This document shows, in pieces, positions 4,312 through 20,386 of a DNA stretch of 20,386 nt. Each line of letters starts with the position of its first letter. The first letter of the stretch is position 1. A program made the translations under genes and the position numbers. This DNA comes from a virus: IMG/VR virus record IMGVR_UViG_3300030430_004520, positions 1 through 20,386 of that record; one strand, given 5' to 3'. Under the pieces are notes generated by a model. The model did not search any database, was not told the origin of the DNA, and saw only the letters and a program-made list of their open reading frames with translations.

Positions 4312-4997
4312 TGTTTGGATATTTTTCACATGGACTCATTCGTAAATATGTAATTGTATTTGGCAGTATGTTTAACGATCTTACTGTCCAACGTAATAAT
4401 GGATCTAGTCGTATACAAACATTGGCTGTACCTATAGCATATGGTCCAAAACAAAAGTTTTTAGTTAGATTAGATACAGATCCTAATCTTGATAGGGAGA
4501 TTGCAATCTCACTTCCTCGTATTGGTTTTGAGTTATCGGGTATCTCGTATGATTCTAATCGTAAACTAAATTCTGCTCAAAAAAATACTTATGACCATAC
4601 TGATAAAAATTTCAGGAAAACTCAGTATACTCCAGTACCATATAATATTGATTTTACAATGTCTATATTTGTAAAAAATGCAGATGATGGTACACAAATA
4701 TTAGAACAGATTTTACCCTACTTTAAGCCTGAGTGGAATATGTCGGTTAATTTAGTACCCGAGATGAATATTAAAATGGATATTCCAACTGTCTTAAATA
4801 GTGTAGACTTTGAAGATACGTATGATGGAGATTTTCAAACTCGCAGAGCCATTATCTGGAATCTTAATTTTACTATGAAGGGTTATCTATATGGACCTGT
4901 TTCTAATCAAGGTGTTATCAAAAGAATTTCTGTTGATATTTACGAGGATGATGCAGACTTCACTTTTTTACAGAGTTTAGGATATATCAATGACTAA
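4311..4997 (+). CDS. 15: Tail sheath stabiliser and completion protein gp15
   Basis: 228 residues (T4 gp15 is 272). The N-terminus MFGYFSHGLIRKYVIVFGSM closely follows the T4 pattern MFGYFY..SFRRY....G..F, and later EQILPYFKPEWNMSVN corresponds to T4 EQILPYFQPHFN. In T4, gp15 forms the hexameric terminator on top of the sheath and tube and binds the neck. The ATG shares its A with the gp14 stop codon (TAATG), so translation is probably coupled. It overlaps the following adhesin gene by 8 bases. In T4 gp16 would come next; here a 3.3-kb gene has been placed between them. Confidence 0.93.
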   Translation: MFGYFSHGLIRKYVIVFGSMFNDLTVQRNNGSSRIQTLAVPIAYGPKQKFLVRLDTDPNLDREIAISLPRIGFELSGISYDSNRKLNSAQKNTYDHTDKNFRKTQYTPVPYNIDFTMSIFVKNADDGTQILEQILPYFKPEWNMSVNLVPEMNIKMDIPTVLNSVDFEDTYDGDFQTRRAIIWNLNFTMKGYLYGPVSNQGVIKRISVDIYEDDADFTFLQSLGYIND

Positions 4998-7900
4998 ACC
5001 TTTCAGCCGAATAGTAGTTACTGCTAACACTACAACATCAGAACCCATTATCACTAAAACATTTTTAGATAAGGGATTACATACAGATTTGGATAGTGTT
5101 ACATATAGTTTGTCTTCTTCACATGTATCTGCAAATGAGGGTGACACTGTAACTATTACTCTGACTACTAGTGGACTTCCAAATAATTCAGATATTGCTT
5201 ATATTGTAACGGGTATAAGCTCTGCAGATTTATCATCTGGTAGTTTAACTGGGGATTTTGAAATTAGTAATAACACAGGGTCAGTATCATTTACATTAGC
5301 AAATGATTTGACCACTGAGGGAAGTGAAACACTAAGTTTGTCTCTTGTCAATGGTAAAGCTTCAAAAAATGTTACCATCGGAGATACTAGTCTTACACCA
5401 GCAACATATTCACTAACCAGTGACAATTCTTCTTACAATGAAGGCGACACTATTAATATTACCTTAACTACTACAAATGTAGATGACGGTACTAATATTC
5501 CATATACGGTTAGTGGTATTACTGGTGCAGATTTATCCTCTGGAGCTATCTCAGGAAACTTTACTGTTACTTCTGGAACTGCTTCATTATCTTTTGTTTT
5601 AACAAACGATGTAACAACTGAAGGTACAGAGACATTTACTATCGCTTTAAATAATGGAGAAGCTTCAAAATCAGTAACTATTAATGATACAAGTTTAACT
5701 AAAACATATTCTATATCTAGAAATGCAGCTAATGTAAATGAGGATGGTTCAGTAGTATTTACATTAACTACGGAAAATGTAGGTGATGGAACTGCAGTTC
5801 CATTTACAATAACAGGAATTAATTCTAGTGATATAACAGCTAGTACACTAACAGGAAACTTTATCGTATCTGGTGGTACTGCCACAAAATCTTTCACAAT
5901 GGTTGAAGATGCATCCACTGAGGGTGCTGAAACCATGACTTTAACATTAGACAATGGTTTGGCTTCTAACTCAGTAATAATCAATGACACTAGTCAAGGT
6001 CCAACATATTCTTTAACTAGTAGTTCGGAAAGTATAAATGAAGGTCAAAGTGTAATATTTACATTGACAACAACAAATGTTGCAGATGGTACAACTATAC
6101 CATATACAGTAACAGGAATTGATGTAGCCGATTTAGTCTCTGGTTCTTTAACAGGTGTTTTTACTATAAACTCTAATCAAGGAACACAGTCATACGGATT
6201 AGTTAATGATACAACAACAGAAGGTGAGGAAACTTTAACCTTATCACTTGATAATGGTGCTGCATCTAAGAATGTTACTATTAATGATACTAGTGTTGGT
6301 GTGCCTTCATATTCACTAGCTAGAAGTGCCAGTAATGTAAATGAAGGTGGTGCAGTATCATTTACATTGACAACAACTAATGTTGCTGATGGTACTAATA
6401 TTGCCTATACTGTTACTGGAATATCTTCAGCTGACCTTACTTCAGGTTCCCTTACCGGTAACTTTGTTATGTCTAGCGGTACAGCAACCCAAAGCTTTGT
6501 ATTAGCAGAAGATGCATCGACTGAGGGTGCTGAAACTATGACAATGGCTTTAGATAATGGTCAAGGTGGTACATCCAGTGTTACGGTCAATGATACTAGT
6601 GAAGCAGTATCATATTCATTAGGTAGAAATGCTACAGCAATTGATGAGGGATCACAGGTCGTCATTTCATTATCCACAACTGGTGTGTCAACAGGTACAA
6701 ATGTTGCATATACTGTTAGCGGTATTGATGCAAATGATATCGAGTCAGACAGTGCACCATTAACTGGAAACTTTACTACATCTGGGTCTGGAACTGATTC
6801 CAAAACATTTAAACTAAAAGAAGATGTTGCGACCGAGGGCACAGAAACATTAACATTAGCACTTGACAATGGTGAAGCAGCTATTACAGTAGATATTAAT
6901 GATACTAGTACGGCACCAACATATGATTTAAGTCCTAGTTCTAGTACTGCAAATGAAGGTGATACAATCACATTTACACTTAATACCACTGGTGTTAGTG
7001 ATGCTACCATGATTGCTTATACAGTGACAGGAATTAGTAGCGGTGATTTATCATCTGGTGATATGACTGGTAACTTTATCATATCTTCAGATACTGCGAC
7101 AAAATCATTTACCCTAGCTAATGATGAAAGCACTGAAGGTTCTGAAACTATGACAGTGACGATTGATGCTACTGGAGATAGTGCAAGTGTAACAATAAAT
7201 GATACTAGTACTACACCAACACCATCTGCTTCTGTCAAGTTGTATTTGCCATTTGATGGCAATTATAATGATGGTTCTACTTTCACTTATGCTCATAGAT
7301 TTGTCGAACAAGGTCATGGTGCTATCACAGCTGGGGGTGTTTCCGTATCTCAGATTATGAATTCAGGTTCTAAATATGGTTCCGGACATATGAAAACACA
7401 GATTGGAGATAGAGGATTTTATCAATCATCTTATAATGATTGGTGGACAGGTTCATCTTCCTCTGATATAAGATTATTAACATATGCATATACGGACCAA
7501 TCTACTATGCCGTGGTATCCAACAACTAATAGTGCTTATAATGGTCGGGCAAAATCCTTCACAATACAATTTTGGATTAAATTTTTAGAGGTTGATACTT
7601 CACCATCTCATGTTACTACATCATCGGTCGTTTCTCACAGAGCTTTTGCCATGGGAGATGCAGGTAGTACAATGCTTGGATCGTCAACATGGCGACCATG
7701 GCTAGTTTGTCAATTGCAAGGACCATCTTCATGGGATAGTTCATCTGAAACTCCATATCTTCAAATTTTTCAATATGTGAGTAGTACTGGCACTTATACT
7801 TCATATACATCTACTGGATTGGGTCATCTTATATCATATTCTAATACAAATTTGTCAAGAACAGATTGGAATCATGTTGCAATACAAAGAATTGCACCTA

Positions 7901-8286
7901 ATCCAGCAGACCATGCAAGTGTAACATCTCATCAACAAGCTTGTACTTATGCTGTATGGCACAATGGAACTAGAGTATCTACAGATGTAGCTCCAACCTC
8001 GTCTCAAGAACTAAGAAGAATTGGTAATTCAAGTAACTCGTATGGAGGTACGCCACATCCTAATCGTGATTGGGGATGGGGACATTCTGACACTGTCACA
8101 CCAACAATAACTGGTACTTACAGTGCATTTAGTCAACAACCAAAACATATAGTGAAATTTGGTGGTAGTAATGCAAGAGGTTTCAATCTAATTGACGATT
8201 TTAGATACACTGTTGGTGAAAGTATATACGATACAAGTCAATCATCAATCACAGTTCCAAGTTCAGCTTTAGGGAATACTATCTAA
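4990..8286 (+). CDS. Large Calx-beta-like repeat protein with C-terminal LamG-like domain (putative virion adhesin/decoration protein)
   Basis: 1098 residues. After about 37 residues come seven repeats of roughly 101 residues (starting at residues 38, 139, 239, 339, 440, 541 and 644). Each has a T/SYSL start, an N-E-G-D/Q-T/S turn, a central VTGI..ADL.SG.LTG.F stretch, a TEG.ETL strand and an end in NDTS. This is the pattern of Calx-beta-like, often calcium-binding beta-sandwiches. From about residue 745 to the end there is a concanavalin/LamG-like domain: LYLPFDGNYNDG, then FTIQFWIKF, WNHVAIQRI and DDFRYTVGESIYDT. Such domains commonly bind glycans. No signal peptide or membrane segment is seen, which fits a virion protein. 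It overlaps gp15 by 8 bases and gp16 by 1. A role on the virion surface is inferred from position and architecture; the T4 locus has no counterpart. Confidence 0.8.
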   Translation: MTKPFSRIVVTANTTTSEPIITKTFLDKGLHTDLDSVTYSLSSSHVSANEGDTVTITLTTSGLPNNSDIAYIVTGISSADLSSGSLTGDFEISNNTGSVSFTLANDLTTEGSETLSLSLVNGKASKNVTIGDTSLTPATYSLTSDNSSYNEGDTINITLTTTNVDDGTNIPYTVSGITGADLSSGAISGNFTVTSGTASLSFVLTNDVTTEGTETFTIALNNGEASKSVTINDTSLTKTYSISRNAANVNEDGSVVFTLTTENVGDGTAVPFTITGINSSDITASTLTGNFIVSGGTATKSFTMVEDASTEGAETMTLTLDNGLASNSVIINDTSQGPTYSLTSSSESINEGQSVIFTLTTTNVADGTTIPYTVTGIDVADLVSGSLTGVFTINSNQGTQSYGLVNDTTTEGEETLTLSLDNGAASKNVTINDTSVGVPSYSLARSASNVNEGGAVSFTLTTTNVADGTNIAYTVTGISSADLTSGSLTGNFVMSSGTATQSFVLAEDASTEGAETMTMALDNGQGGTSSVTVNDTSEAVSYSLGRNATAIDEGSQVVISLSTTGVSTGTNVAYTVSGIDANDIESDSAPLTGNFTTSGSGTDSKTFKLKEDVATEGTETLTLALDNGEAAITVDINDTSTAPTYDLSPSSSTANEGDTITFTLNTTGVSDATMIAYTVTGISSGDLSSGDMTGNFIISSDTATKSFTLANDESTEGSETMTVTIDATGDSASVTINDTSTTPTPSASVKLYLPFDGNYNDGSTFTYAHRFVEQGHGAITAGGVSVSQIMNSGSKYGSGHMKTQIGDRGFYQSSYNDWWTGSSSSDIRLLTYAYTDQSTMPWYPTTNSAYNGRAKSFTIQFWIKFLEVDTSPSHVTTSSVVSHRAFAMGDAGSTMLGSSTWRPWLVCQLQGPSSWDSSSETPYLQIFQYVSSTGTYTSYTSTGLGHLISYSNTNLSRTDWNHVAIQRIAPNPADHASVTSHQQACTYAVWHNGTRVSTDVAPTSSQELRRIGNSSNSYGGTPHPNRDWGWGHSDTVTPTITGTYSAFSQQPKHIVKFGGSNARGFNLIDDFRYTVGESIYDTSQSSITVPSSALGNTI
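5101..7212 (+). repeat. Seven tandem ~303-bp coding repeats (Calx-beta-like)
   Basis: Repeat starts are at 5101, 5404, 5704, 6004, 6307, 6610 and 6919, giving spacings of 300-309 bases. Most units end with GATACTAGT or a close variant encoding DTS (for example 6286, 6592, 6901, 7201). Similarity extends to DNA in places. Bases 6058-6093 and 6361-6396 are nearly identical at exactly 303 bases distance. The segment starting at 5905 is nearly identical to that starting at 6508 (two repeats away, differing at two of about 35 bases). Other parts have diverged to amino-acid level only. Confidence 0.9.
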
Positions 8287-9502: not shown

Positions 9503-11124
9503 TGTCAGACGCATATTTGTCCAATCCTAATCTAAAGAAGATTGGGGTTGATATTGAATTTACACAGAAACAGATTGAAGAATATGTGAAGTGTGCCAAA
9601 GACCCCATTTACTTCATTAGACAGTTTGTTAAGATTATTCATGTTGACCATGGGTTAATTCCTCTTGACCTATATGAGTATCAAGAGCGTATGGTCACAA
9701 CTTTCAATGACAACAGATTTGTTATCACAAAAATGCCAAGACAATCTGGTAAGTCAACAGCTGTCGTTGGTTATATTTTACATTACATTTTATTTAATCA
9801 GGATAAGAATGTAGCTCTGCTTGCCAACAAGGCAGAGTTGGCCCGTGAACTACTAGACAGACTTAAGAAGGCATATGAGAACTTACCACTCTGGTTACAA
9901 CAGGGTATTGTTGTATGGAATAAGGGCTCTATTGAAGTGGAGAACGGTTCTAAGATTATAGCAACCTCAACCACAGGGTCAGCAGCTCGTGGTCAGTCTT
10001 TCTCTCTAGTATTTCTAGATGAGTTTGCATTCGTACCACATGGACTAGCAGATGACTTCTTTAAATCAGTTTATCCTACTATCTCATCTGGTCAAGAAAC
10101 TAAAATGATTATCGTGTCTACACCAAAAGGTATGAATCACTTCTATAGAATGTGGACTGAGGCAGAAGAAGGAAGAAGTAACTTTCTACCACTCACAGTG
10201 AACTGGTGGGAAACACCAGGCAGAGATGAGAGATGGAAAGAAGAACAGATTGCAAATACCAGTGAAGAAGATTTTGAACAAGAGTTTGCATGTAATTTCT
10301 TAGGTACATCTAATACTCTTATCAATACTAATACTTTACGTAATTTAACATTCGTAAGACCTATATTTCAAAAACAAGGATTTGACCAATATGCAAATAT
10401 CGAACCTGGTCACGAATACATTATAACAGTAGATACTTCTAGAGGTGTGGGTGGGGATTTCTCAGCCTTTACAGTGGTAGATGTAAGTGATATTCCTTAT
10501 CGTGTTGTTGCTAAATATAGAGATAAAAACATCTCTCCTTTATTATATCCTGAACTCATCTATAATGTTGCTAATAATTTTAATCAAGCTTTTGTATTGG
10601 TTGAAATAAATGATATCGGTGAACAGATTGCAAATATATTATATCGTGATTTAGAATATGAAAATTTATTCATCACAGCTATGAAAGGTAGAGCCGGCCA
10701 AAGAGTTGGTGGTGGATTTGGTAAGAATGCTCAACTTGGAGTAAGAACCACAAAACAAGTAAAAAGAATAGGATGTTCAACTCTTAAAGATTTGATAGAA
10801 GACCAGAAGATTATCATTGAGGATTTTGATATTATTGAAGAACTTTCAAACTTCATATCTAAAAGGGAGTCTTACGAAGCCGATGAAGGTCATCATGATG
10901 ATTTAGTAATGTGTCTTGTTTTATTTGGTTGGTTAATTCGTCAAGAATATTTTAAGGATTTGACTAACTCTGATATTCGTCAAAAGTTTTTAGCTGATAA
11001 AGAAGAAATGTTAGATGAAGAGATGTTACCCTTTGGTTTTTATGACGATGGTCAGGATAATACTCCCAAGGTAGAACAGGTTGACCATTACTCTCTAGAA
11101 GATTTAAGAGAGTTCTTCAGTTGA
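9502..11124 (+). CDS. 17: Terminase large subunit gp17 (packaging ATPase/nuclease)
   Basis: 540 residues (T4 gp17 is 610). ATPase domain: Walker A PRQSGKST (79-86, K84), Walker B VFLDE (170-174, D173 with catalytic E174), and coupling motif STPKG (206-210). Nuclease domain with RNase H fold: D311 in TVDTSRG, E369 in VLVEIND and D466/D467 in HHDDLVM are the expected metal-binding acids. It docks on the gp20 portal, drives DNA into the prohead and cuts the concatemer. The C-terminal tail after about residue 485 is acidic. The ATG overlaps the previous stop codon by one base. Its last 21 bases are overlapped by an antisense NUMOD3 gene. All key residues are present, so it should be active. Confidence 0.97.
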
Positions 11125-11307
11125 CCATGGGTCTATAATTGTTACAGCATCTTTCTTACGCTTCATAGTCTCACTTATCTTTTTCTTGGTTTCTTCACTA
11201 TGTTTTTTTCCACGATGAGAATCGCTCATTTTCCGTTTAGTTTCATCGGAAAACTTACGACCCAACTTTGCTTCACGCATTTTATTTTTTGTTTCTTGAC
11301 TCTTCAT
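11104..11307 (-). CDS. Small NUMOD3-repeat protein (homing-endonuclease DNA-binding remnant)
   Basis: 67 residues on the strand opposite to all other genes. Residues 7-46 contain tandem NUMOD3-type motifs: [19 protein letters not shown], then [17 protein letters not shown], then [15 protein letters not shown]3 modules are DNA-binding pieces attached to GIY-YIG and HNH homing endonucleases. No catalytic domain is present here. The frame stays open for only 19 codons upstream of the ATG, without another standard start or any GIY-YIG motif. No good ribosome site is visible; an AATAAATA (11320-11313 on this strand) lies only about 5 bases from the ATG. The last residues overlap the end of gp17 and are probably incidental. 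It is either a decayed endonuclease or a small free-standing DNA-binding protein. Homing genes often sit beside terminase genes. Confidence 0.6.
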
Positions 11308-14093: not shown

Positions 14094-15713
14094 ATGGCAG
14101 TACAATTATTTGGATTTGAGATAGCAAGACAAAAAGGTGAAGAAAAGGAACTAGAGACAGTCAAGTCTCCAGTTCCACCATCTTATGATGATGGAGCAAT
14201 GGAAGTAGTTGCTGGTGGTTCTTACGGAACATATGTAGATTTAGAAGGTAAAGCTAAATCTGAAGGAGAACTAGTTACAAGATATCGTGAAATGGCCTTA
14301 CAACCAGAATGTGATAATGCTATTGAAGATATTGTTAACGAGGCGATCGTTGTAAATAAAGAGTCACCAGTCAATGTTGTTCTAGATGATATTGACCAAC
14401 CGCGTGCTTTAAAAAATCGTATTAGAGAGGAGTTCTATAATGTTCTAAAACTCCTTGACTTCAATAATCTAGCGTATGATATCTTCCGTCAGTGGTATAT
14501 TGATGGTAGACTATATTATCATATCATGATTGATGAAAAGAAACCACGCGATGGTATCAAAGAGTTACGTAAGATTGACCCTAGAAAAATTAAAAAAGTC
14601 CGTGAAAAAGTTTCAGAAATGGATAAAAGGACTAGTATGAAAATTGAGAAGGGTTATCAAGAGTACTATATCTATCATCCTAAAGGAATTACATCTCAAA
14701 GCAATCAAACAGCTGTTAAAATTTCTAAAGATTCTATTTGTTATGTGACGAGTGGACTTATAGATCCAGCCAATAAAATGGTTATGGGTTATCTACATAA
14801 AGCAATTAAACCTTTAAATCAACTTCGTACACTTGAGGATGCAACTGTCATTTACAGACTTTCTCGTGCTCCGGAGCGTCGTATTTTCTATATTGATGTA
14901 GGTAATCTACCTAAAATGAAAGCTGAACAATACCTGGCCGATATGATGGCAAAACATAAAAATAAGATTGTATATGATGCATCTACTGGTGAAATCAGAG
15001 ATGACCGTAAATTTATGACCATGATGGAAGACTTTTGGCTCCCACGCAGAGAAGGCGGTAGAGGAACAGAAATTACAACACTTCCAGGTGGTCAAAACTT
15101 GGGTGAAATGGATGATGTTGATTACTTCCGGAGAAAACTTTACAAATCTTTGAATGTCCCCATTACAAGAATGGAGTCGGATGGACAATTCAACCTCGGA
15201 CGCACAAGCGAGGTTACACGAGACGAACTAAAGTTTACTCGGTTTATTGAGAGACTTCGGGCCAGGTTTACCCATGTGTTTGATAGCCTCCTTGAGATTC
15301 AATTAGTTCTCAAGGGGGTTATCAATCGTAAACAATGGAAAGAGTTACGTGAAGATTTATATTATGACTTTCCGAAAGATAACTACTTCTCTGAATTAAA
15401 AAATGCTGAAGTTCTTACAGAGAGACTTAGACTAATGGGTGAGGTAGAACAGTATGTTGGTAAGTTTTATTCATTAGAGTGGGTTCGTAAAAATATTCTT
15501 CAAATGTCAGAAGAAGAAATTCGTGATATGAATAAACAAATCAAAATTGAACAAGAAGAAGAAGGTAATCCTATGAATGATGAAGAACCAGAAGATGAGG
15601 TTGATGAAGAAGGATTTGAACCTGTGGAGATGAGTGAAGAAGATCGTGCACTCATTTCTAAAATGACCTCACTCCTAGAAAATGTAGAGTTGGGAGATGA
15701 TGAGGACTTCTAA
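14094..15713 (+). CDS. 20: Portal vertex protein gp20
   Basis: 539 residues (T4 gp20 is 524). The segment [27 protein letters not shown] in the N-terminal quarter, the [16 protein letters not shown] stretch near residues 256-271, and [15 protein letters not shown] followed by [15 protein letters not shown] (from about residue 352) are core features of T4-like portal proteins. The dodecamer forms the head vertex, initiates capsid assembly, and is the docking site for gp17 and then for the gp13/gp14 neck. The last 50 residues are strongly acidic. T4 would continue with the prohead core and protease genes (67, 68, 21, 22). Here the stop codon overlaps the start of a giant collagen/PKD gene instead. 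Confidence 0.96.
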
Positions 15714-18700
15714 TGAAAGAGTTAGAAAACGCTAAACTTCTTGCTGCTGGTTTGAAACTTGCAAGAAGTGAGATTAATAAAAAAGTAAAACCTCTTAGAG
15801 AGGAAATAAGTAAAATTCACCAAATCCCTGGACCTCAAGGACCACGGGGCGAAAAAGGTGAGAAGGGAGATATTACCCTTGTTGAAGGTCCACAAGGACC
15901 ACAAGGACAAAAGGGTGAAGTTGGTGAAAAAGGTGATACTGGATTATCTGGTATCAGCGTTATAGGTGTTGAATTATTTGAAAATAATCTTGTCTTTAAC
16001 TTTTCAGATGGTAATACAATAGATGTTGGTGAGATCAATCGTGGAGAAAAGGGTGATAAAGGTGACCAAGGTATACAGGGTGAAAGAGGTTTCACTGGTT
16101 TTAGGGGTGAAAAAGGAGATTTAGGTGAGCAGGGTATCCAAGGTATACAGGGGCCTCGAGGCCCAAGCGGTATTCGCGGACCTACCGGCTTACAGGGTCC
16201 AAAAGGTGAAACCGGTCAAAGAGGCATCCAAGGAGAACGTGGTCAAACAGGAGCACAAGGAATCCCAGGACCAAAGGGAGAGCCAGGACAAGATGGTAAA
16301 GATGGAGTTGATGGTTTACAAGGAGAGAAAGGTGATGTTGGACCCCAGGGGCCAGCTGGGAAAGATGGTAGACCTGCTGATTTAAATCCCATTAAAGAAA
16401 ATTTAAAAAAACTACAGGATGAATTACAAGTATTTGAAAAGAAGGTAAATGCTAGAATTAGTCAAGTGAGTATGGCTTCAATTGGTGGAGTTAGTTCTGG
16501 TGGTGGTGAAGTTAGATTATTAAGGTTAGATGATGTAAATGTAGATGTTAGTAATCCAGGAACTGCTAATGGTAAAGCATTAATATGGAATTCAGACTCC
16601 AATAAATTTGTTCTTGGTCAAGTAAGTGCAAATGGAAGTGGAGGAAGTTCTGGTAACGGAGTTAGTATTTCTGATTTTCAGTCTTTTGTTTCAAATACAA
16701 ATTCATTTATTAATTCTCAGTTAGCTAATACTAATGCTGCGATTGCTAGTTTAGAGGTAGGTGCTGGAGCTAATACTGGAATGGATTTACCACTAGGTAA
16801 TCCTACAGATACTAGTTTAACAACAGACGGTGCTTATCAAAGTTTTACAACTAGTACAAAAACAACAGATGCAATTGATACTCTCAATGAGGTTATTGAG
16901 AATATCAGAAACAATACATTTGTTAAATCAGTTGAATTCATTTCAGACAAAACATCTGGTGGTGCTGGTCTTACCGTTCAACTTACTATTACAGCTGTAG
17001 GAAATCCAGATCAATTTGTTATTGATTGGGGTGATGGTACACCTAACGATACAACATCAAGCACAACACCAACTCACACATATAATACAAATGTGGGGTC
17101 ACCTTTCACAGTACAGGTTACTGCCAGTAATACTAGTGGATCTGGTGATGGAAGTTTTGCATCTTTTACAAGACCTGATTATATTGCAATTGCAACAGCT
17201 GATCCAGTTGTTAGTTTTGAGGTTTATGCTAATCCAACTGGTGGTTCACCAATTACATTTTGGGATGATGGTGCAACAGTTTACTTTGAAAACAATACTA
17301 CAAATATTGGACCGGCAACTATTCAATTTACATGGAATTGGGGTGATGGTTCATCAAACGATGTTATTACCTCTGATACTGATCCAGGTGGTACAGCAGG
17401 TTCTAGACTTGCTCATACATTTACTGCTAGTACAGAACAGGATCAAACCAGAAATGTCAGTCTTACATTAGACTCTCATAATACAGCTGATCCAGCAGTC
17501 ATTCCTACTGATTCCAGCACTGGGTTTAGAATATATGATACTCACACACCAAGCTTGACACTTAGTAGCACGTCTGGTATTAATGAAGAGTCCACCTCTG
17601 GTCATAATGTTACATTTACTAATACAACTGAAAATACTATCGGTAGTCATAGTGTGTTTGGTATTCAATATGTCTATACCTTCGGTGATGGTACATCACA
17701 AACTGTAAATGTTGGATCTGGAAATGATGGTGATACTGGAGGAACTATTGCTCATACATACACTCTTTCTAGTTCTGACCAAGCATCTGGTACACCTGCA
17801 GATTATACTGGTAATCTACAGGTAACAAGTAACCATACATCTAGTCCGTTCACGAGTTCTTCTTTTACAGTCCATATTGAACCGGATGTAAGAGCAAATA
17901 TCACAGGCACGGCCGTTACCGTATCTGATGGTAGTGGTGATAATGCATTCACCATCTACAATCATACAGACTTGACAGGTGCAAATCGTGCATTAGTCAG
18001 AGTCACAAACAGTTCTCAAAATGGTAATATCTATGGATATGCATGGGGTGATGGTGATACAGATTCGGCAATTCCACAGGATGGTACTACACCAGGAAGT
18101 GTAGGTGCAACTATTGACCATGATTATACTGGCGAAAGTACTGGTAATTATACTGTTACTCTAACAGCAAATGGTACACCAGACTTAACATATCAAACAG
18201 ATACAGAAAGTATCACATATAATCTCAAAGCAGTACCTGCAGCACCAGGTGGTTTAAGTACAAAAAGCATTACACTGAACACTAGTTCAGTAGGAACACA
18301 ACCAAAATTAGCTTCTGGATTTACAGATATAAGTTCAAGTAATCCATTAGTTGCTGGAGCAAATCTGAATACATCTACGGCAAGAAGATATACTTCTGGT
18401 TCAGTAGTTACATCTACTGCTAGTAATGCATTTAATGGATCAGCTGGTGATTTGACTGTAAGTATTAACGGATCTAGTGATGGTCAAAAATCATTCTCAA
18501 CAGCCTTAAATGAAACTGGTACATTCACAAGTTTGATTGTGTCAAGTCAAGTTGATTTTAATGGGGTAGATTCATCTTATCCTTCAAACTTCTACCAGGT
18601 ATTCAGTGCTAATATTAATAAAGATATAACCAGTTTAGGTATTGGTGTGACTGATATGAGATTACGTCATACAACTACAGGTGATACAAATCATGTTGCC

Positions 18701-19852
18701 TTTCTAAAAGATGATTTAACAGCTGTCTCATCTTTTGATTCTACTGGTAGTCTCAGTGAAGGTACAGCTGGTTTTAAAAGATATATTTCAGGTATTCCTT
18801 ATTATAATACAGGTTCACCAGCGATCACTCTGTCTGGAGCAACCGTAAATAATTTAGTTGGTCAGGCTTATACTAATCAATCAAATATTGTAGAAATTGA
18901 TAGTCATACAAACCATGAAGGTACATCTTCTAACGCGTTTAGTAATCAAAACTATTCGTATTCAGATATTGATGGCACCTCAACAATGTTATCAAGTGGC
19001 ATTCCTATTGTCAACACCGGTGTTGGTTCTGCATATGCACTTGGTGACTTATCTATTCCAATTACATCTTCAAGTGTAAGAACTATTGACACTGCAAAAA
19101 TTAGAGTAAGAAACGTCAATGGTACAAGTTCATACACTCCACTCACTACAAAGATTCAAGTACACACGGCATCACAGTCTGGTATTGTTGAGCAAGCTAT
19201 TCCAGTTGCTGATGCCTTAGGTGCTATATTTGACGATGATGGTGTCCGTATTTTCGACTTTAGTACTGATACTACTGATACTCCCTCATTCAATGGGTCT
19301 ACAAACTTTTATACAAATAGTTTGTATAGTGAAGGTGCTGATCCTGGGGTATCTGGTACAAAAGAAGCCACAATTCGTCTAGGTGTGCTGAAGCATGATG
19401 TAACAGATTATAGTACAGGATATTTACCTGTTGGTCCAGATCGTAGTGGTGATACCGGCACTCAGTATTTCACTTTTGCATTTAGAAGACAAACAGTTGC
19501 TAACTTTGATTTAAATATAACTAGTAGTACAGGTATTGCTGGTTGCTTTATTGCCGCCCCTGGCACTACTATTGATAATACAAGTGGACTAAACGGTTGG
19601 TTAGATACTAGTGTTACATATGCAGGTGCCGGCGTACCAGGAAGTAATACTGGTAATGGTGGTAATGGTTCAGATGGTTGTGCATTTACACCAGGTGATA
19701 GAATCTCAACCGGTACAAGTCTAAGTGGTTCATTTAGTTTTACATTAGGAAGTGAAAACATGTCTAATGCTACCGGTAATGTTCTTCTAGTCAGAATAGC
19801 TTTAACTAGTGGACAATCTATTTCTGCTATTAGTGTAGGAGTACCAACCTAA
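15713..19852 (+). CDS. Giant collagen-like and PKD-repeat structural protein (putative fibre)
   Basis: 1379 residues. Residues 1-36 form a charged helix. Collagen-like G-X-Y tracts cover 40-53, 59-80 and 111-221; the last is 37 unbroken triplets. The 30-residue insert between them (81-110) has an [17 protein letters not shown] beta motif. A helical stretch (224-250) and a phage-fibre segment [12 protein letters not shown] with [14 protein letters not shown] (268-302) follow. Four PKD-like domains are marked by DWGDG (438-442), NWGDG (542-546), TFGDG (656-660) and AWGDG (777-781), each followed by an H-T-Y/F or H-D-Y. Residues 850-1379 are Ser/Thr/Gly-rich beta sequence that I do not recognise. 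Triple-helical stalks with a beta tip suggest a trimeric virion fibre, perhaps on the head or neck given its place after gp20. It starts at a TAATG overlap. Confidence 0.8.
15830..16375 (+). repeat. Collagen-like Gly-X-Y coding repeats
   Basis: Three runs of nine-base Gly-X-Y units: 15830-15871, 15887-15952 and the unbroken 37-triplet run at 16043-16375. Common units are GEKGDKG, GIQGERG, GPQGP and GPKGE, rich in the Lys-Glu/Asp pairs that stabilise bacterial and phage collagen triple helices without hydroxyproline. The interruption at 15953-16042 encodes a small beta module. Confidence 0.92.
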
Positions 19853-20386
19853 TGGCTATTTCAGATGCACAAAAATTAGATTTCTTATGGAAAAAAATTG
19901 GTTATGGTGTATCAAAGACTGATACTAATGATAACAAAAAAGCTCCTAACGAATCTATTGCTAGTCCATTATTACTTCGGGGTGATAAAGTGTGGGCTCA
20001 AGCAGGTAGTATTCCTGCTGCCATCCCAACATCATCTTCAACTGTAGTGCGAATATACCCAACTTCTAATCCAGTAGAAACAACTGCAGATAATACAGCC
20101 ACAGCAAATAGAACTTGGAAAACCGGAGATACGGATTGGATTCCACCAGAAATTGGAGCCACATATGGAGTGAAAGTGTATGTACACACTAGCTCAGATG
20201 CAGCTGGTGCTTCTGGTGGGACACAATTATTTGCCACAGGGTCAGGGAATAATGACGAATGGTTTTTTGATTATCAAAGTGGTGTATTACATTTTATTGG
20301 AGAAAATTTACCTAATGGTGTAGACTTTACTGGTAAAAGTATATATATAAGTGGGGCGAGATATATTGGCACTTTCGGTGTCTCTA
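19852..20386 (+). CDS. Putative virion structural protein, 5' part (runs off the window)
   Basis: The ATG at 19852 overlaps the preceding stop codon by one base (TAATG) and the frame stays open for 178 codons to the window edge. The N-terminus contains KLDFLWKKIGYGVSKTD (8-24) and APNESIASPLLLRGDKVW (31-48), a segment that resembles conserved structural proteins of marine T4-like phages, followed by a WKTGDTDWIPPEIGATYGVKVYV stretch. The visible part is soluble, beta-rich in appearance, and has no signal peptide or membrane helix. It likely works with the collagen/PKD protein upstream, for example as a fibre base or attachment partner, but this is inferred only from adjacency and translational coupling. 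The specific role is unknown. Confidence 0.68.
   Translation, partial: MAISDAQKLDFLWKKIGYGVSKTDTNDNKKAPNESIASPLLLRGDKVWAQAGSIPAAIPTSSSTVVRIYPTSNPVETTADNTATANRTWKTGDTDWIPPEIGATYGVKVYVHTSSDAAGASGGTQLFATGSGNNDEWFFDYQSGVLHFIGENLPNGVDFTGKSIYISGARYIGTFGVS

Follow-up and report, generated by a model that had tools for sequence, protein, structure and literature searches.

What does a T4-like phage gain from a 1379-residue protein encoded directly after its portal gene, and on which part of the particle does such a protein sit? The window, as we call the whole 20,386-base virus record analysed here, carries a T4-type structural block that includes genes for a head-tail adaptor, a head-closure protein, a tail sheath stabiliser, the small and large terminase subunits, the sheath, the tube, and the portal. 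The original prediction, made from the DNA letters alone, described a collagen stalk followed by four PKD-like domains and a C-terminal region of no recognised family, and proposed a long trimeric fibre, perhaps on the head or neck. The best reading of our results is a modular virion fibre for which the head or neck is a more likely site than the tail. Its informative part is the pair formed by the C-terminal region (T) and the product of the next open reading frame (B), rather than the stalk or the position beside head genes.

Architecture of the 1379-residue protein

The stop codon of gp20 and the start codon of the 1379-residue ORF are joined in a TAATG overlap, and the next ORF (B) likewise begins on the stop codon of the 1379-residue ORF. 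The features of this stretch, in window coordinates, are as follows.

14094..15713, + strand: gp20 portal gene (Portal_T4, E 5.7e-178)
15713..19852, +: 1379-residue ORF with collagen stalk, PKD shaft, and T region (ORF list; Gly-X-Y scan)
15713..15820, +: N-terminal cap, residues 1-36, helical-looking (alignment; helix read from the sequence)
15830..15958, +: first, interrupted Gly-X-Y tract, residues 40-82 (Gly-X-Y scan)
15959..16042, +: non-collagen insert, residues 83-110 (Gly-X-Y scan)
16043..16375, +: 37 unbroken Gly-X-Y triplets, residues 111-221 (Pfam, scan, shuffles)
16391..16642, +: coiled-coil-like stretch and LDDVN..V..GKALIW motif region, residues 227-310 (alignment)
16643..16771, +: NTN-repeat linker, the stalk/tip fusion junction, residues 311-353 (alignment)
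16922..17173, +: PKD unit 1, residues 404-487 (Pfam; profile comparison)
17180..17536, +: PKD-like unit 2, residues 490-608 (profile comparison)
17537..17896, +: PKD-like unit 3, residues 609-728 (profile comparison)
17897..18247, +: PKD-like unit 4, residues 729-845 (profile comparison)
18248..19849, +: T region, core of PHROG 8578, residues 846-1379 (profile, alignment, model)
19433..19849, +: most conserved C-terminal domain of T, residues 1241-1379 (alignment, conservation profile)
19852..20386, +: B partner gene, PHROG 9417, cut by the window end (ORF list; profile match)

The ORF at 15713-19852, the unbroken run of 37 triplets (residues 111-221), and the second, interrupted tract (residues 40-82) with its insert (residues 83-110) are all present as originally described. 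The Pfam Collagen family PF01391 matches the protein at E 4.9e-19 (68.3 bits, with a cut-off of 27.2), and the longest Gly-X-Y run across 2000 shuffles of the protein was six triplets. As a triple helix, the main run would be ~32 nm long. The interrupted tract consists of two short runs before the insert, at residues 40-54 (five triplets) and 59-82 (eight triplets). The alignment shows that the N-terminal cap also opens the separate stalk genes of relatives, with which the window protein has residues 227-310 in common as well.

The four PKD-like domains of the original description were found as four mutually related units, of which unit 1 alone passes the Pfam cut-off in the window (PF00801, 27.2 bits against 23.5), units 2-4 falling below it. 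The whole protein gave no PKD match in Pfam at E ≤ 1; residues 354-850 scanned alone matched PF00801 above the cut-off at E 3.8e-6, and 17 of the 32 alignment members, the window included, match this family. Compared profile against profile, every unit is related to the other three (E 6.5e-6 to 3.7e-11 over the six pairs), and each contains a GDG motif (residues 440, 544, 658, and 779). The PKD profile gave no match among solved structures, and the middle part (residues ~230-869) gave no match at E 1e-3 in a tblastn search of named phages. The Pfam search placed no Mtd_N domain on the window protein. A head-core scaffold in place of T4 gp67/68 was considered for this gene, and nothing in the sequence fits it.

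Several other genes of the window are recorded here in their own right. A 2OG-Fe(II) oxygenase (positions 1093-1848; PF13640, E 2.1e-13) lies in the same window as the collagen-like gene; this enzyme might hydroxylate the stalk, but the idea was set aside, the main run holding only three prolines at the Y position. Just upstream (438-1118) is a 226-residue protein that matches PHROGs labelled ferrochelatase at E 1.8e-46; its HYHKD stretch is oxygenase-like, and the ferrochelatase label may be wrong. A 258-residue protein (1890-2666) with a Peptidase_G2 (IMC) autoproteolytic domain (E 2.4e-31) is encoded upstream of the neck genes. Between the gp15-like and gp16 genes, positions 4990-8286 encode a second long adhesin-like protein of 1098 residues, with at least five tandem ~100-residue NEG..V.FTL.T repeats followed by a different C-terminal region. 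Between the large terminase and sheath genes is a short ORF on the minus strand (11104-11307) with lysine-rich repeats that resemble homing-endonuclease DNA-binding repeats.

The T region and its conserved C-terminal domain

The C-terminal region, originally taken to have no recognised family, belongs to PHROG 8578, with residues 738-1375 aligned on positions 75-649 of 652 at E 4e-59. A tblastn search with residues 820-1379 found matches in 52 of 50,697 named phage records at about 24-34% identity; the carriers include phiCbK-type Caulobacter and Brevundimonas phages, Agrobacterium phage Atu_ph07, Sinorhizobium phage Phosso, and Salicola phage SCTP-2, and 41 of the 52 records carrying T and B are not RefSeq entries. 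Among uncultured virus contigs, a scan with the whole protein returned 323 relatives and a scan with the T alignment at least 582, with 80 loci kept from each; one T-alignment scan of cellular genome contigs gave 20 pattern matches, none of which was confirmed. The literature search, which covered subscription journals little, found no mention of the two PHROG names, CbK_gp073, or two protein accessions, and no paper linking the T family to head fibres.

An AlphaFold2 monomer of residues 820-1379 was predicted with a mean pLDDT of 88.5 and a pTM of 0.80. Over its first 330 residues the model looks like a row of sandwiches of the Ig or FnIII type, and the whole fold has weak similarity to solved structures: the best hit of a PDB fold search had E 5.6e-4 and a TM-score of 0.12, the VIA Z-scores against Ig-type domains (up to 7.4) cover model residues 25-328 only, and the T profile compared by sequence with solved structures returned only one antibody at E 0.067. 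The best fold matches are predicted phage proteins, among them a PKD protein of an uncultured phage (TM-score 0.89), proteins of CcrColossus and Atu_ph07, and, more distantly, one of Tenacibaculum phage PTm1. The model of B has a mean pLDDT of 66 and no PDB match at E 0.001.

Conservation was profiled with 59 full-length relatives, compared in 1343 pairs. Relative identity peaks over the final 140 residues (1.18 and 1.14), drops to 0.87 at residues 1081-1160, and is lowest in the linker at residues 354-410 (0.82); the contrast weakens when the window is set against L003, L004, and L094, the relatives closest to it. By these values, T ends in a conserved domain and not in a variable tip. A receptor-binding tip that changes fast would be expected to give the opposite pattern. 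The possible new receptor-binding fold of the original prediction is not supported: the predicted monomer opens with Ig-like sandwiches and ends in its least variable part.

T and B form a two-gene cassette

B belongs to PHROG 9417 (residues 1-177 on positions 1-188 of 231, E 5.8e-34). The tblastn searches with T and with B find the identical 52 records of the 50,697. In the uncultured contigs, we surveyed 97 distinct T loci, taking one locus per identical T sequence and leaving out the window's own locus (L083) and those of named phages (L081, L082, and L084-L087). In eight of the 97, the contig ends less than 200 nt past T; in every one of the 89 others, among the loci kept, the start of B follows T at a distance of 0-22 nt. 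Start positions in this survey were called by ATG only and several are wrong, which leaves the counts unaffected. In CcrSC gp131, Bajun_02310, Atu_ph07 AUZ95084, and Phosso XYS97283, a single polypeptide holds both, with B on the N-terminal side of T. Because T and B are neighbours everywhere and fused in places, they most likely act in one structure.

CcrSC and Bajun (L082 7389-12166; L087 7585-12484) each hold a T-alone gene, a B-T fusion, and a B-alone gene in a row, which looks like a cassette that was duplicated and then fused. A separate observation concerns a C-terminal motif, D[GCY]G.[FYW], mostly DGG[ST]F, that stands at the end of 31 ORFs out of 1217 distinct ones, where its frequency at internal positions predicts 0.03; many of the 31 are relatives of each other. 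It occurs at L002-L004, L041, L068, L145, L147, L155, and L162, and also at the phiCbK-type loci L081, L082, L087, and L089-L092, and is common to B proteins of different phage groups and to unrelated-looking neighbours. This sequence pattern hints at a docking tail.

Genome neighbourhood and N-terminal modules

Of the loci surveyed, 91 have a T identity above 50%, L088-L093 (phiCbK-type or more distant) being left out of this set. Among these, 52 contigs extend 7 kb or more upstream of T, and 46 of them have gp23 on that side at a distance of no more than 8 kb; in the other six, T stands twice after gp20, twice after gp16, and twice without a placement. T follows gp20 in the window and in L004/L094, and the cassette follows gp16, not gp23, in L077, L145, L160, and L162. 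In phiCbK, the capsid genes (major and minor) come first, gp073-gp074 lie just behind them, and gp076 stands further downstream; in PTm1 the cassette precedes a gene annotated as a neck protein, with the portal gene ~8 kb further on. Atu_ph07 has a neighbour labelled tail fibre and Phosso one labelled minor tail protein, and some T-B genes are themselves annotated 'tail protein'.

The N-terminal part ahead of T is swapped among relatives. L004 carries an Mtd_N module ahead of T and the PKD units (Pfam E 8.4e-13), L077 carries a T4 gp9/10-type module ahead of T (E 2.3e-8), and further relatives have N-terminal modules without an assignment at this place. Mtd_N and the T4 gp9/10 N module are known from tail or baseplate proteins.

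The strongest alternative is a tail, baseplate, or whisker-type fibre whose place beside head genes merely follows late-gene order. The Mtd_N and T4_gp9_10_N modules of some relatives speak for it, as do the tail-labelled neighbours in Atu_ph07 and Phosso, the position after gp16 in a few contigs, and the mostly tail-labelled PHROGs that contain collagen; it has to contend with capsid, portal, or neck neighbours that recur in several unrelated genome types, and with three cassette-carrying phages that have head appendages. We regard a tail-side fibre as a serious contender that falls short of being probable.

Cassette-carrying phages with head appendages

The three phages are phiCbK, Atu_ph07, and PTm1. 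The phiCbK genome paper describes a head filament that binds the flagellum and treats the identity of the proteins that make up this filament and the tail fibres as 'of significant interest' (PMC3556154). Two of its points weigh against a head fibre made of T-B: its authors favour gp76 for the filament, and the eight proteins found in phiCbK virions include neither gp073 nor gp074. The whiskers of Atu_ph07 are termed 'primarily capsid-associated' in the available text, in which CDS 284-329 form one of three clusters that encode most of the 131 virion proteins detected by mass spectrometry (PMC6102473). By CDS counting, which reproduces that paper's portal gp198, major capsid gp215, and tail fibre gp288, the B-T fusion of Atu_ph07 is gp325 and lies, by position, inside CDS 284-329.

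PTm1 is reported to bear capsid hairs. Its ORF-291 matches PHROG 9417 at E 1.7e-5 and our alignment A4 at 3.1e-4; alignment A5 includes the B protein of PTm1, which in part accounts for the E-values that it gives for PTm1 and PTm5. The T profile gave no match against PTm1 as a whole, and against ORF-290 alone it gave a weak 129-column alignment (probability 28%, E 6e-4). From this alignment together with the fold match, ORF-290, directly before ORF-291, is likely T, the BFVD entry of PTm1 being equated with ORF-290 by its equal length (629 aa) and the adjoining B gene.

RaK2 is a hairy phage. Profile searches of the hairy or capsid-fibre phages CBB, 121Q, RaK2, 7-7-1, and Y3 found neither T nor B, and T-B cannot define all head or capsid fibres because 7-7-1, CBB, 121Q, and RaK2 are without the cassette; the 7-7-1 paper calls the capsid fibre proteins of this phage unknown. 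For AP-J-162, an Atu_ph07-like Sinorhizobium phage, the available part of the paper mentions no head fibres of its own but names a pair of 'tail proteins', 726 and 679 aa long, that resemble proteins of Atu_ph07 (PMC11242549); our guess, from their length, is that these are T genes.

A fibre turned the other way round, attached to the capsid by T's conserved C-terminal domain and pointing its variable N-terminus outward, would be a Hoc-like decoration. T4 Hoc binds the capsid via its C-terminal domain, and the combination of Ig-like and PKD units with a conserved C-terminus and a variable N-terminus suits this design; however, T spans T4-type and phiCbK-type genomes, so that a contact with the capsid would need to work on shells of very different kinds, and the B-T fusions place another domain at the N-terminus of T. 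We consider a Hoc-like orientation improbable.

Fusion of stalk and tip

Among the relatives kept, only L001 and L078 share with the window a collagen stalk fused ahead of the tip; every other relative with a visible start begins with something else. In L002, L003, L004, and L068, the stalk is a gene of its own (443-531 aa) just upstream of the tip. Since near relatives hold the stalk as a separate gene and other relatives do not begin with it, the stalk is, judged by these gene arrangements, a lineage-specific addition. L002 already has the NTN-repeat linker on its tip, with a cut-short Mtd_N start left upstream, and is likely an intermediate between the separate and fused states. The series would then display a stalk gene and a tip gene in the course of merging, from split (L003/L004) through intermediate (L002) to fused (window/L001/L078). 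An assembly artefact might be suspected where stalk and tip are separate genes in L002-L004 and L068, but this is very improbable, as the same fusion stands in the separate contigs L001 and L078 with junctions that agree with the window.

Proposed role and comparison with known systems

We estimate a probability of about 0.52 that the protein is a head or neck fibre with T-B at its working end. Such a virion fibre would be built from swappable parts: the lineage-specific N-terminal half, a collagen-type stalk, would anchor the fibre to the particle and trimerise it; the four-PKD shaft would follow; and T and the B product, most likely one complex at the working end, would form a portable two-part end common to phages of unrelated capsid types. 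The target of T-B would be some widespread feature of the host surface or of a host appendage, and this binding would provide a first, reversible contact ahead of engagement by the tail. Such a fibre would most likely be mounted on the head or neck. The long fibre on a collagen-type stalk, encoded beside head genes, is thus retained from the original prediction, and its head or neck site is kept as plausible only.

A wider proposal treats T-B as a head-fibre adhesin of two proteins that travels as one cassette between phages with unrelated shells and is mounted on each lineage's own anchor, here the collagen stalk. It would span phiCbK-type, Atu_ph07-type, Tenacibaculum PTm1-type, and uncultured T4-like phages, and we consider it tentative and rather unlikely. 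If true, proteins of the head appendages seen in phiCbK, Atu_ph07, and PTm1 would come from T-B. Phage head-fibre proteins are mostly unassigned, and a strict T-B unit in phages with head appendages is a concrete lead, with phiCbK gp073 and gp074, Atu_ph07 gp324-326, and PTm1 ORF-290 and ORF-291 as named candidate genes.

Compared with known systems, the window protein has a Gly-X-Y stalk like that of the collagen-containing phage tail fibres (PHROGs 5073, 6320, 366, and 819), which match the collagen and its flank to residue 421 but neither the PKD shaft beyond nor T. The modules of Bordetella phage Mtd and T4 gp9/gp10 are N-terminal in L004 and L077, respectively, and absent from the window protein. 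T4 Hoc is a modular Ig-like protein of the head gene region without a collagen stalk; going by this general description, it resembles the window protein in being modular, Ig-like, and encoded in the head region. The closest counterparts are the PHROG 8578 proteins phiCbK gp073, CcrSC gp130/gp131, and Atu_ph07 gp325, which have a ~540-residue C-terminal region like that of the window, at 24-33% identity in the named phages aligned, and share the B partner with its T. In contrast to the window with its collagen stalk, these named relatives have no collagen run in the sequences compared, and the records consulted label them only 'tail protein' or give no function. In PHROG 9417, represented by phiCbK gp074, the first 180 residues are conserved and the gene lies directly after T or is fused ahead of it; compared with phiCbK gp074, the window copy of B ends at the contig end.
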